Shown here: positions 903 through 49,551 of the stretch, piece after piece | Numbering within the stretch: the stretch's first letter is position 1 | Layout: each line of letters starts with the position of its first letter | Source of the DNA: Streptococcaceae bacterium | Lineage (GTDB): Bacteria; Bacillota; Bacilli; Lactobacillales; Streptococcaceae | Length of the DNA: 64,000 nt | Assembly (NCBI GenBank): GCA_031269775.1 | Contig: JAISYQ010000014.1 | Location: forward strand, 62,001-126,000 | Direction of reading: 5' to 3' | Translations under genes and position numbers: made by a program | The notes under the pieces: generated by a model | What the model was told of the DNA's origin: nothing | Databases searched by the model: none | What the model saw: the letters and a program-made list of their open reading frames with translations, nothing else

Positions 903-2327
<1,425 letters not shown>

Positions 2328-18516: not shown

Positions 18517-18692
18517 TAGACCTCCTCGGAAATTAGTGTATAAAGAGAATTCGTTTCAATTTTCCTGAGACAAGGAAAAAAACTTAAAGATACGTAGTGT
18601 ATTTTGAGGCTTTTTGACGCTAGAGGCACGGCTTCTAGGTGATGGATAAAAGAAAATGAAGTTCTCATACATCTACTTTTCGAGGAAGTCTA
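18517..18692 (+). mobile_element. MITE-like TIR element, copy A (internally deleted)
   Basis: The left end reads TAGACCTCCTCGGAAATTAG and the right end CTACTTTTCGAGGAAGTCTA, which are imperfect inverted repeats bounded by TA. The interior shares long identical stretches with the copies at 25813, 39874 and 48399 (for example CTTAAAGATACGT and GGCTTCTAGGTGATGG). About 43 bp present in the other copies, from CGAAAGTG to AAAACGAA, is missing between short GAA repeats. The element sits 5 bp downstream of the rplQ stop and 12 bp upstream of ispG. Confidence 0.85.
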
Positions 18693-18697
18693 ATATC

Positions 18698-25812: not shown

Positions 25813-26035
25813 TAGATCTCCACTGGAAACTAGGGTATAACGAGAATTCGTTTCAATTTTTTCTTGATACAAAGAAAAAAACTTAAAGATACGTGTTTCT
25901 ATTTCGAGTCTTTTTGACGCTAGAAGCACGGCTTCTAGGTGATGGATAAAAGAAAATGAACGAAAGTGAATTTTCTGTCGCCGTCAGGGAAAAAGAAAAC
26001 GAAATTCTCATACATCTAGTTCCCGAGGAGGTCTA
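25813..26035 (+). mobile_element. MITE-like TIR element, copy B (inside the spc operon)
   Basis: This 223-bp element begins TAGATCTCCACTGGAAACTAG and ends CTAGTTCCCGAGGAGGTCTA, inverted repeats bounded by TA. The interior includes a perfect hairpin CTAGAAGC-ACG-GCTTCTAG. It has the full internal region CGAAAGTGAATTTTCTGTCG absent from copy A. It lies between rpsH (stop 16 bp away) and rplF, within one polycistronic unit. Confidence 0.88.
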
Positions 26036-39424: not shown

Positions 39425-39873
39425 TCATAATTCATCGATTCTTGAAATAAAATTGATAATTTTTTTTATGTCTTCTTCTGTTAAATAGCGGATATATTCT
39501 GCTTGTCTATTGCTGTTGATAACTATTGGCAAAAAATCATAAAGCATGTTTAAATACATCAATAACATTCTTACACTCCGTCCATTACCATTTGAAAATG
39601 GGTGAATGCGCTCAAACTGAATATGATTATCGGCTAAAATTTCTGTAATTCTTTCTTTCACAATTTTCAAGCGATAAATTGATAACGGTATTTTTTTCTA
39701 ATTAAATCAATTAAATAAGCAAAGGTTTGTCTGTGATTATCAATTTCATAAAATTTACGTACAGAATATCCTTTTTCATTGGTTGAAATCGTGTGCTCTA
39801 AATAATGGCAACAGTTTCTGCTAAAGTAATAATATTTATCTTCAATTGCGTTAGAATGATAGGTTATACATAT
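39425..39873 (-). pseudogene. Truncated and frameshifted Fic-domain gene
   Basis: The 3' part is intact and carries the Fic active-site motif HPFSNGNGRSVR. Upstream, a second frame encodes family sequence including ITYHSNAIED, CCHYLEHTIS and YEIDNHRQTFAYLIDLI. The two frames are separated by a one-base slip at a seven-T run (39691-39697 on the plus strand). The 5' end stops at TIR element copy C at 39874, and no further Fic sequence lies beyond it. Fic enzymes AMPylate proteins; this copy cannot make a complete protein. Confidence 0.8.
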
Positions 39874-40094
39874 TAAACCTCCTCGAAAAGTAGATGTATG
39901 AGAACTTCGTTTTCTTTTTCCCTGACGGCGACAGAAAATTCATTTTCATTCATTTTCTTTTATCCATCACCTAGAAGCCATGCCTCTAGCGTCAAAAAGC
40001 CTCAAAATAGCATCACGTATCTTTACGTTTTTTTCCTTGTCTCAGAAAAAATTGAGACAAATTCTCTTTATACCCTAATTTCCGAGGAGGTTTA
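39874..40094 (-). mobile_element. MITE-like TIR element, copy C (reverse orientation)
   Basis: The ends are TAAACCTCCTCGAAAAGTAG and a complementary end at 40075-40094 finishing GAGGAGGTTTA. The interior is the reverse complement of copies B and D, including CTAGAAGCC and CATGCCTCTAG around a hairpin, and a perfect TTGTCTC/GAGACAA stem. It joins the truncated fic gene to the 3' end of the CPBP gene (5 bp from its stop). The 65-codon ORF spanning it is a by-product. Confidence 0.88.
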
Positions 40095-45471: not shown

Positions 45472-45843
45472 TTAAAAAATTTATACTTTTATATTAGCGC
45501 ACATTACCAAAAAATAACACTTCAAACTAACACATACATAGTACTTTAACTTTTAATAGTTTTACATTATAAAATAGAATCAAGAGGTGACTATAATGCC
45601 AAGTTCAATTTGATATGAAAATAGTTTCGCAAATATTTTTTTGAAAAGATTTCCCGTATAATAAAAAAACGGTAAATTTACCAAATTACTTTTCTTGTTC
45701 GGTAAGTTTATCAAATTCTTTTTCCTATTTTGGTGGCACTCTTTCATGTAATTTAAAATCCTTTAAACACTCAAAAAAAGAATGGAATATATACGTTTTT
45801 AAAGTGAAAATAAATTTTCTTATTATAATTAAGGAGGATATAA
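45472..45843. other. Upstream region of the bacteriocin operon
   Basis: This 372-bp gap contains a possible promoter (TTAACT, 18 bp, TAAAAT ending near 45580), a five-codon ORF at 45597 with a strong GAGGTG site (MPSSI then stop), the paired 30-bp repeats at 45670-45729, and further AT-rich sequence before the bacteriocin gene. After the five codons the frame reads YENSFANIFLKRFPV, so a decayed gene start is possible. Confidence 0.4.
45670..45729 (+). repeat. Two tandem 30-bp direct repeats upstream of the bacteriocin gene
   Basis: The units CGGTAAATTTACCAAATTAC (45670 on) and CGGTAAGTTTATCAAATTCT (45700 on) align over 30 bp each. The first contains the palindrome GGTAAATTTACC. A weak promoter-like pair (TTGGTG 45730-45735, TTAAAA 45753-45758) lies immediately downstream, so the repeats are placed like activator-binding sites. 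Confidence 0.55.
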
Positions 45844-46146
45844 ATGAGAATAAGAAAATTTAAAAATATCATTGTAACCATCACTCTGTTTCTAGGAATA
45901 ATTTGTTCAATTCCGGCATTAGCGGATACAATTTATTATAAAGGATATGCAGTTTATTGGAACTATGGTCGTTTTTGTCCTTTGAGAGATTGGAGTTTTT
46001 CTGAGGTTCAAAGTTCAAATTTTGATCATACTGCAACAGCAAATTCTGTATCTTCTGGATGGCAACCACCTTGTGTTGTAGCGTATGCAAAATGTCATAT
46101 TGGTGTTTTAGGTCATGCAACAGCCGCTTGGAATTGTCGCGGTTAG
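45844..46146 (+). CDS. Lactococcin 972-family secreted bacteriocin precursor
   Basis: The 100-aa product has a Sec signal peptide (MRIRKFKN, hydrophobic core, then IPALA) with predicted cleavage after Ala27, leaving 73 residues. The mature part shows the family layout: YYKGYAVYWNYG, a WSFS segment, DHTATA, then VAYAKCHIGVLGHATAAWN. Members form a bacteriocin that blocks cell-wall synthesis by binding lipid II. The mature peptide has four cysteines (45, 77, 84, 98), unlike the classical peptide. A perfect AAGGAGGA site precedes the ATG. The next two genes are the expected immunity/export partners. Confidence 0.8.
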   Translation: MRIRKFKNIIVTITLFLGIICSIPALADTIYYKGYAVYWNYGRFCPLRDWSFSEVQSSNFDHTATANSVSSGWQPPCVVAYAKCHIGVLGHATAAWNCRG

Positions 46147-46187: not shown

Positions 46188-48401
46188 ATGAGACGATTGT
46201 TACCAGTAGGAAAGTTGAAATATTGTGTATATCTTTTAATTATCATTCAAGGAATTTTACTAGCAACTCTAACTTCTTGTTTTCTAGATCAAAAATACAA
46301 AAATACGTGGAATTCATATCCCAATAATGGAGAATATCTTTATATTTCTCAAGTTTCCTCTGTTCATGAGGAAAAAGTTTCTCAATATTTATTATCGGAA
46401 GCTATAAAGCAATCTTTGTTTTTGGTAAGAATCGAAAATGATCAAGAATGTGGAATTTCTTCAAAGATAAAAATAGGAGTGGAGGGAGCTTTTCAGTCCA
46501 ATGAAGCAGAATTTCATTTTTTAGATCAAACATTGCTCGATTTTCATAAATTAATGACTCTTTTTCAATCAAAAAATATTAAAAGTACTTTAGGTGTAGC
46601 AAAGGGTAGTGCTTATTGTGTAGGAGAGTTATCTTGTTTGCGTTTTGGAACGAAGGTTGTCATTGAAAAACTTTCTCAGCTTATCAAAGAAACTCATACA
46701 GTGAATGGAACTTATCGAGTTGTAGGATGGAAATCTGACCAACAAAAACAAGCGTTTATTGACCAACTTGCACAAATGATAGGAAATTCGGATAAAAGTT
46801 TTCTTTTTGCTCAGAGTGGAAATTATGTCAATGACCCATTTTTATTAAAAATTTTGATTGCATTCATTTTATTGGCAGGTTTTGTTCTTTTGATTCTTTT
46901 GATGGTTTTAGCGGCTCAAACATTGGGTTCGTTAGGAAAGTTCATACTCCTAGGTTGGTCAAAAATGAGTGTAGTTTATTCGCTGTTTCAACCATTTGTC
47001 CTGGTATCTATCGGCTTTCTTCCATTTTCTGTTCTGCTTGGTTATTGGTTGCTTGGAACGGTTCCTTTTTCTTATTCATTACTTAGCTTTTTTATCCTGA
47101 CAGGTATGGCAAATGTGTTCTTTCTGTTATTGTTATGTACGTTAGTCAGTGGAATTTTATTGTTGATTCGTCCAATTGATGCCATTCATCAACGAATTCC
47201 TCAAAAGATACTTTATGCGTTTGGAATTTCAACTTATCTCTTGATTGGAATAGGATTGATTGTTACTTCTTCTTATATGGATAATTTTTTTCAAGAATGG
47301 ATCGACAATCGAGAATTATATAAAAAATGGGAAAAAGTTTCTAATTATCACATATTAGGAGATCTTTCTTTTGAAAAGGATGCTTCGTCTGCTATGGGAG
47401 GGGCAAAACAATTTGATTTAAAATTTTATCGTTGGTATCAAGCCATTGCAAATCGAAAAGGAGTTTATTTGATTCACACAATGCATATCGATGAAAAAAT
47501 ATTACATTTATGGCGTGAAAATCAAGTGTATGATTATATCCCTGAAGAAAGTTTTTGGACTTATAGTGTCTCAGCAAATTATTTATCTCAGCTGAATGTT
47601 TCATTATCAAAGCAAACGCTTGAAGAAGTCACACGCGGAGTTCGATTATATTTGCTACCTAGCAATTTGAAAGGTAGCAAACGTCAAAATATGGTGAACT
47701 ATTTGCAAGAAAGTACGTTAAAAGGTCTTCAAAAAGATGATATTCCTACAAATTTTAATCAAAATCAACAATTTTGTTTCCTTAATTACACTCCTACAAA
47801 AGGGATATTTCATTGGTCAACTGAAAAAGCGACGGAGAAAATCACAAAAGCACCAATTATTTATGTGATGACTCCTCAAAACATGACATTTAGAGAATCG
47901 GAAAGTTTGTATTCAATTGGATTAGAGAATAATTATTTAAAATTTGTCGATCACAAAACAATGGAGCAATGTACTGAAGAGCATTTTTTACAAAAGTTTG
48001 AGTTATCTAAGAAAAAAATGAAATTCATTGGAATTTGGGAATATATTGATGGTCTTCAAAAAGACCTTTTAACTACTACTCAGTTGCTAGGTGGAATATT
48101 TTTATTTTTAATGTTATTGGCTGTGGCATTGTTGCTAACATTGGCAGGTGTTTTTCGATTGGCAAACCAAGAAAAAATTTATGTGCAAAAATTTTTAGGC
48201 TTCGGATATTGGCAAACTTATCGTATTTCCATTTTTTTGTTGGCAAGTATTGTTGGTTTAGAGTTGTTAACAGTTATTTTAATTCACTCCAGATTGGGAA
48301 TGATCTTTTTAGGAATGGTTGGAGTGATTCAATTTTTTGTGTTGTGGAAGTATGTAACAAGAAACGAAATCAAGCAATTAATATCGTATTTTAAAGAATA
48401 G
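46188..48401 (+). CDS. Bacteriocin-associated 7-TM integral membrane protein (DUF1430 type)
   Basis: This large membrane protein (737 aa from the ATG at 46188; TTG 46170 is possible) has an N-terminal helix (about 12-34), a long extracytoplasmic region, three or four helices at about 215-370, another large loop and a C-terminal block of helices. The architecture resembles FtsX-like permeases and the membrane partner found with lactococcin 972-type genes, proposed to give immunity or export. The stop codon TAG uses the first bases of the TIR element that follows. Confidence 0.75.
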   Translation: MRRLLPVGKLKYCVYLLIIIQGILLATLTSCFLDQKYKNTWNSYPNNGEYLYISQVSSVHEEKVSQYLLSEAIKQSLFLVRIENDQECGISSKIKIGVEGAFQSNEAEFHFLDQTLLDFHKLMTLFQSKNIKSTLGVAKGSAYCVGELSCLRFGTKVVIEKLSQLIKETHTVNGTYRVVGWKSDQQKQAFIDQLAQMIGNSDKSFLFAQSGNYVNDPFLLKILIAFILLAGFVLLILLMVLAAQTLGSLGKFILLGWSKMSVVYSLFQPFVLVSIGFLPFSVLLGYWLLGTVPFSYSLLSFFILTGMANVFFLLLLCTLVSGILLLIRPIDAIHQRIPQKILYAFGISTYLLIGIGLIVTSSYMDNFFQEWIDNRELYKKWEKVSNYHILGDLSFEKDASSAMGGAKQFDLKFYRWYQAIANRKGVYLIHTMHIDEKILHLWRENQVYDYIPEESFWTYSVSANYLSQLNVSLSKQTLEEVTRGVRLYLLPSNLKGSKRQNMVNYLQESTLKGLQKDDIPTNFNQNQQFCFLNYTPTKGIFHWSTEKATEKITKAPIIYVMTPQNMTFRESESLYSIGLENNYLKFVDHKTMEQCTEEHFLQKFELSKKKMKFIGIWEYIDGLQKDLLTTTQLLGGIFLFLMLLAVALLLTLAGVFRLANQEKIYVQKFLGFGYWQTYRISIFLLASIVGLELLTVILIHSRLGMIFLGMVGVIQFFVLWKYVTRNEIKQLISYFKE

Positions 48402-48621
48402 ACCTCCTCTGAAATTAGGTTATAACGAGAATTCGTTTCAATTTTTTCCTAAGGACAAGGAAAAAAACTTAAAGATACGTGGTACTATTTTGAGGCTTTT
48501 TGACGCTAGAGGCACGGCTTCTAGGTGATGGATAAAAGAAAATGAACGAAAGTGAATTTTCTGTCGCCGTCAGGGAAAAAGAAAACGAAGTTCTCATACA
48601 TCTAATTTTTGAAGAGGTCTA
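48399..48621 (+). mobile_element. MITE-like TIR element, copy D (inside the bacteriocin operon)
   Basis: This 223-bp element begins TAGACCTCCTCTGAAATTAG and ends CTAATTTTTGAAGAGGTCTA, inverted repeats with TA at both outer edges. Its interior is nearly identical to copy B. It lies exactly between the membrane-protein gene and the ABC ATPase gene. Removing it with one TA would leave AAAGAATAATGAGGGAGATC, restoring a TAA stop and a short, normal operon junction. Confidence 0.9.
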
Positions 48622-49296
48622 ATGAGGGAGATCATGAAAGCAATTGAATTGAAACATGTGTGTAAGCGTTATAAAAATCGGAGTATTTTAGAAAACATTT
48701 CGCTAACAATTGAGGAGAGAAAGTTCATTTCGTTAGTAGGACCTTCAGGATCTGGAAAATCAACCCTATTGAATATGATTGGTTTATTGGAGACGATTGA
48801 TGAGGGAGAGATTTTTGTATTTGGGCAAAAACTTCCGAATATCAATTGTCGAAAAGCAACTTGGATAAGGCGAAATGTAATCAATTATTTGTTTCAGTCA
48901 TTTGCCCTGATTCATAATTTAACTGTAGAGCAAAATTTAAATATTGCAATGAATTTTGTAGATTTTCCCAAGAAAGAAAAACAGAGGAAGTTGAAATTGA
49001 TTCTTGAGCAAGTGGAATTAACTCCGTTTATTCAGGAAAAGGTCAACACACTTTCAGGTGGTGAGCAACAACGAGTTGCATTAGCGCGAGCCATGCTAAA
49101 GCCTGGAGATTTGATTTTAGCAGATGAACCAACGGGATCGTTGGATGAAAAATTGGCGGAAAAAATATTTAAATTGTTGAAAGATTTAAGTACACAATAT
49201 CAAAAAACGATTGTGATGGTTACACATGATTCAAAGTTAGCACAACAAGCAGAAGTTCAGATTGATTTGGCACATTTTTTGGAGAAAAAGAGATAG
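48622..49296 (+). CDS. Bacteriocin export/immunity ABC transporter ATPase
   Basis: This is an ABC ATPase of the MacB/LolD-like group that accompanies lactococcin 972 clusters (224 aa). Walker A GPSGSGKST is at 40-48, signature LSGGEQQR near 140 and Walker B LILADEPTGSLD near 160. It probably works with the preceding membrane protein. Two starts are possible: ATG 48622, preceded by AGAGG contributed by TIR copy D, or ATG 48634 with the native GAGGGAG. Cysteines and lysine-rich tail are unremarkable. Confidence 0.88.
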   Translation: MREIMKAIELKHVCKRYKNRSILENISLTIEERKFISLVGPSGSGKSTLLNMIGLLETIDEGEIFVFGQKLPNINCRKATWIRRNVINYLFQSFALIHNLTVEQNLNIAMNFVDFPKKEKQRKLKLILEQVELTPFIQEKVNTLSGGEQQRVALARAMLKPGDLILADEPTGSLDEKLAEKIFKLLKDLSTQYQKTIVMVTHDSKLAQQAEVQIDLAHFLEKKR

Positions 49297-49531: not shown

Positions 49532-49551
49532 TTTTTTTTTTTTTGGGGGGG
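49532..49551 (+). repeat. Homopolymer tract: 13 T then 7 G
   Basis: Thirteen T are followed directly by seven G, flanked by GATCG and CAATCG. A G7 run is rare in such AT-rich DNA. It lies in non-coding relic sequence, so phase variation has no obvious target; the length could also vary between reads. Confidence 0.85.

Follow-up and report, generated by a model that had tools for sequence, protein, structure and literature searches.

We found that the window, the whole 64,000-nt stretch of DNA analyzed here, carries a three-gene cluster whose first product is most likely a functional bacteriocin of the lactococcin 972 (Lcn972) type directed at lipid II. Lcn972, which has no cysteine, is the standard example of an unmodified bacteriocin that binds lipid II. 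The window cluster is a genus-specific, four-cysteine layout inside an unremarked cysteine-bearing subfamily, and is a modest departure from a known kind. Taken jointly, it is probable that the three genes form a functional Lcn972-type cluster, that its peptide acts on lipid II at the septum, that a permease and ATPase protect the producer and that disulphides brace the peptide. The features of the cluster are as follows.

45832..45837, plus strand: ribosome binding site AGGAGG (from sequence)
45844-46146, plus strand: bacteriocin open reading frame with an ATG start, 100-aa secreted precursor (from sequence)
45844..45924, plus strand: Sec-type signal peptide, 27 aa, ending ...SIPALA (from sequence)
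45925..46146, plus strand: lactococcin 972-like bacteriocin, mature part of 73 aa, and stop codon (from sequence, alignment and model)
45976-45978, plus strand: Cys45 codon
46072-46074, plus strand: Cys77 codon
46093-46095, plus strand: Cys84 codon
46135-46137, plus strand: Cys98 codon
46188..48401, plus strand: 737-aa permease of the bacteriocin-associated integral membrane protein type (from orthologues, TIGR01654 via homologues, model and fold search)
48401..48622: MITE-like repeat of about 222 bp whose termini are inverted repeats (TAGACCTC..), separating the permease gene from the ATPase gene
48634..49296, plus strand: ABC transporter ATPase (best match TIGR03608, L_ocin_972_ABC, 241 bits, cut-off 254.85)

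The Sec signal peptide typical of the lactococcin 972 family was assigned by eye from the sequence and alignment, and its cleavage site was placed from the A-x-A motif together with the alignment. The precursor would thereby be exported by Sec and its signal peptide removed. Cys21 lies within the hydrophobic signal, and inspection revealed no lipobox. The two motifs named in the original prediction, YYKGYAVYWNYG and DHTATA, are both found in the peptide, as are the four cysteines that it placed in the mature part (Cys45, Cys77, Cys84 and Cys98, which are C18, C50, C57 and C71 in mature numbering). All five precursor cysteine codons (residues 21, 45, 77, 84 and 98) are TGT. Four cysteines within 73 residues are unusual because the local cysteine frequency is just 0.67% (binomial P about 0.0015). 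We sought a regulator box in the upstream region and found none that was convincing; promoter-like matches there are consensus matches only.

The peptide is not recognized by the curated family models, to which the original prediction had looked for its identity. Searches against Pfam and NCBIfam models yielded no match, including none to PF09683 or TIGR01653 up to an E-value of 10, where the peptide falls below the curated cut-off; a sequence search of the PDB also yielded no match, and viral contigs and phage records contained no credible relative. Five of eight subfamily members match TIGR01653 weakly, with 1.6e-4 as the best value, two streptococcal members score about 21.9 bits against the curated 32.1, and a wider TIGR01653 search of the phylum returned only matches from the same genome and one sub-threshold match. 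Consequently, kinship had to rest on profile, operon and fold, all of which uphold the lactococcin 972-type identity. Because the curated models are not matched, we call the peptide lactococcin 972-like, as it shares the fold and operon type while lying outside the family as curated.

Profile comparison with hhalign aligned the subfamily (16 relatives) to the canonical family (14 members) with moderate significance (P 5.5e-5, probability 66%, 42 columns), and the two profiles share WnYG, S..H and AxA. The AlphaFold2 model of the mature peptide has five strands at moderate confidence (mean pLDDT 77) and adopts the Lcn972 beta-sandwich fold. Its top two matches among 350,542 PDB chains are lactococcin 972 itself (2LGN, Foldseek probability 0.97) and Formosin D, a bacteriocin of the same family (9HKJ, 0.84), both with a VIA-align Z of 7.7 compared to 4.3 for the next chain. 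A literature search for Formosin D, which is 11% identical to the window peptide, found no publication. With lactococcin 972 (PF09683/TIGR01653) the window peptide shares the Sec signal, the predicted beta-sandwich, the W-x-YG and H-x-A motifs and the three-gene operon; unlike lactococcin 972, which the curated models recognize, it carries an N-terminal YYKG extension and four cysteines. Since the two are 17% identical by structural alignment, identical lipid II contacts cannot be assumed.

Antibacterial activity and action on lipid II at the septum are described for the lactococcin 972 family (PMC11796350). By analogy with Lcn972, the mature 73-aa peptide would fold into a small beta-sandwich and, in related Gram-positive cells, bind septal lipid II, thereby stopping wall synthesis at the septum.

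It had also been claimed that a cognate 7-TM protein and an ATPase follow the bacteriocin gene and complete the cluster. The three genes are indeed present, but their start sites were revised, with ATG 46188 probably starting the membrane protein and ATG 48634 probably starting the ATPase, and a repeat lies between them. The label '7-TM' is a historical family name; a membrane protein does follow, but its model shows two FtsX/MacB-type halves, each consisting of a helix followed by an extracellular domain and more helices. The best PDB matches of this model are of the YbbP, BceB, HrtB, MacB and LolC/E type, with a poor global superposition and a consistent shared class, and the modelled protein would be better described as a YbbP/BceB/MacB-like permease. 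The window permease matches no curated model, while 8 of 14 homologues match TIGR01654 (bact_immun_7tm), and the ATPase scores just below the TIGR03608 cut-off. The cluster accordingly has a TIGR01654-type membrane protein, recognized through homologues only, beside a TIGR03608 ATPase, and the peptide-permease-ATPase order is kept in Streptococcus, Coriobacteriia and Macrococcus.

The likely role of the permease is immunity and/or release. Together with the ATPase it would form a type VII (YbbAP/BceAB/MacB-like) ABC complex that would guard the producer by freeing, at the membrane, either the peptide or lipid II, and that may also help peptide release. Published work on streptococcin B notes that direct experimental proof is lacking for the B and C genes acting in immunity and transport (PMC11796350). 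Past the ATPase gene, a non-coding stretch of 13 T and then 7 G (49532-49551) is a possible slippage site.

The repeat between the permease and ATPase genes is a MITE-like element present at high density given the small size of the genome: about 40 copies with 87-97% identity are found in 1.2 Mb, and the sequence has a strong hairpin fold (z -5.9). Further copies lie within the window at about 39873-40091, 25815-26035 and 18519-18693. The element's position would fit a reading whereby the repeat has disturbed the cluster, the peptide no longer matters and its gene is a relic, and another Lcn972-type gene of the same genome does contain an in-frame stop. We consider this reading highly improbable, as the three frames are all open, the four cysteines are all retained and a terminator-like site was sought in the insert with none seen. 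The source organism, for which a termite or insect gut is no more than a candidate origin, belongs to a small genus, with five species among the genomes compared, and we searched 335 genomes of Streptococcaceae, the majority of them in one genus whose matches come from named Streptococcus records. An equivalent gene is present in one sister species, the MAG 'Lactobacillales bacterium Gsp477_bin117' (L026/L004), whose peptide is 72% identical and keeps all four cysteine positions; at its permease/ATPase junction the repeat is absent and there is only a short gap. Compared to this sister species, the peptide has a dN/dS of about 0.17, the permease 0.18 and the ATPase 0.08, which argues that the cluster has been maintained.

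The same genome contains two more lactococcin 972-type clusters, making three in all. The cluster on contig C13 (L103 2594-5773) encodes a cysteine-free member, and the cluster on contig C9 (L104 2290-5039 and upstream) encodes a member with several cysteines. The C9 bacteriocin gene (L002 about 1471-1740, minus strand) contains an in-frame TGA at a site that is a Trp codon in the sister species G003 (L105 2653-2931); it is a relic, a case of readthrough or a sequence error.

The statement that lactococcin 972 has no cysteine holds for the aligned part of the 2LGN sequence, and the mature parts of canonical streptococcal members are likewise cysteine-free. Exceptions among canonical members are two lactococcal-type sequences with one cysteine and the C9 copy. 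Our alignment shows that a cysteine-bearing subfamily does exist, with relatives in Streptococcus, Atopobiaceae/Coriobacteriia, Macrococcus plasmids and two other Bacilli, while the exact four-cysteine layout occurs only here and in the one sister MAG. In the mature numbering of the window peptide, the patterns are C18, C50, C57 and C71 in the window genus; C67 and C71 in streptococci; C28, C36, C39 and C71 in Atopobiaceae, where some members lack one or two (2-4 cysteines, with three in L044 and L046); C36 and C71 in L095; and C71 alone in Macrococcus (L057) and L096. Cys98 (C71) is the only invariant cysteine, being present in 16 of 16 alignment rows and also in Macrococcus and two further Bacilli. 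In the permease tree, the window-type, streptococcal and coriobacterial cysteine patterns form three well-supported clades, with their deep branch order unsure. Three clades, each with its own pattern, point to separate cysteine gains around one old cysteine.

The window peptide would fall within a divergent subfamily defined by its invariant C-terminal Cys98, with Cys45, Cys77 and Cys84 gained in the window genus and probably forming disulphides that brace the sandwich. More broadly, we tentatively propose, as one possible history, that the subfamily was built on the invariant cysteine, that partner cysteines were gained independently in each lineage, and that covalent bracing or dimerization of a normally cysteine-free sandwich evolved several times, the window genus being one of two four-cysteine solutions. 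The presence of cysteines is not unique to the window peptide, as shown by these relatives and by a Brevibacillus laterosporus peptide, but its exact layout is. The Brevibacillus precursor has two cysteines in its mature part, is of the canonical GGxWNYG type and places them at positions unlike those of the window peptide (PMC6510442). A literature search on cysteines or disulphides in the lactococcin 972 family found no discussion of the cysteine-bearing subfamily. A subfamily that has lineage-specific cysteines and is missed by current family models presents a broader target for genome mining, and its cysteine-varying relatives are natural comparisons for the effects of disulphides on stability or target range.

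The original prediction further proposed two disulphides, protease resistance and an altered target range for the window peptide, all of which are speculation. Disulphides are likely to be found outside the cell, and the model is at its least confident near Cys45 (residues 11-20, pLDDT about 49). An intramolecular disulphide is not obligatory in the subfamily, because relatives with a single cysteine exist. Lcn972 is reported as a homodimer, and Cys98 could instead form an intermolecular disulphide that locks such a homodimer, with the other cysteines making one intramolecular bond or further cross-links. An odd thiol is left in relatives that have Cys98 alone (L057 and L096) or three cysteines (L044 and L046), and the two cysteines of the streptococcal CYWNC end, four positions apart along a predicted beta-strand, could hardly pair if that strand is extended. 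These unpaired thiols and the unfavorably spaced streptococcal pair make a covalent dimer a serious rival, but a rather unlikely one by our estimate, and the extended-strand argument rests on the model of a relative. More doubtful, and in our judgement improbable, is a reading in which the cysteines remain reduced or coordinate a metal jointly with mature His35, His58 and His64. Several histidines are near the cysteines in sequence, and searches of the genome for an extracytoplasmic thiol oxidoreductase with two models found none with PF13462 and only a 104-aa, cytosolic-type thioredoxin without a signal with PF08534. However, the oxidizing exterior favors disulphides, conservation of His58 and His64 is confined to the window genus, and we know of no metal-binding member of the lactococcin 972 family.

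Among the closest comparisons are the streptococcal relatives (S. pneumoniae, S. mitis and S. parasanguinis; L027-L037 and L039), which have about 50-60% mature identity, the pattern YYKG..VYWxYG..WNC and the same operon, and which are probably among the published streptococcins (PMC6120550). Compared to the window peptide, they have two cysteines (CYWNC), lack Cys45, Cys77 and Cys84 and are two residues shorter past the WNYG motif. The Atopobiaceae/Coriobacteriia relatives (L038, L040, L042 and L044-L047) belong to the same subfamily with the same operon, keep Cys98 and have up to four mature cysteines, but their other three are at mature positions 28, 36 and 39, whereas those of the window peptide are at 18, 50 and 57. 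The single-cysteine Macrococcus member (L057 984-1178) is unannotated and resides on mobilizable Macrococcus/Macrococcoides plasmids with a permease and ATPase downstream. Several genomes of the S. mitis/S. pneumoniae group (L019-L023, L041, L043 and L048) have a common one-base deletion, seen when L041 is compared with L039, through which the streptococcal relative ends in VQLNVTGIVGKYL instead of CYWNC; the permease and ATPase are intact where checked.
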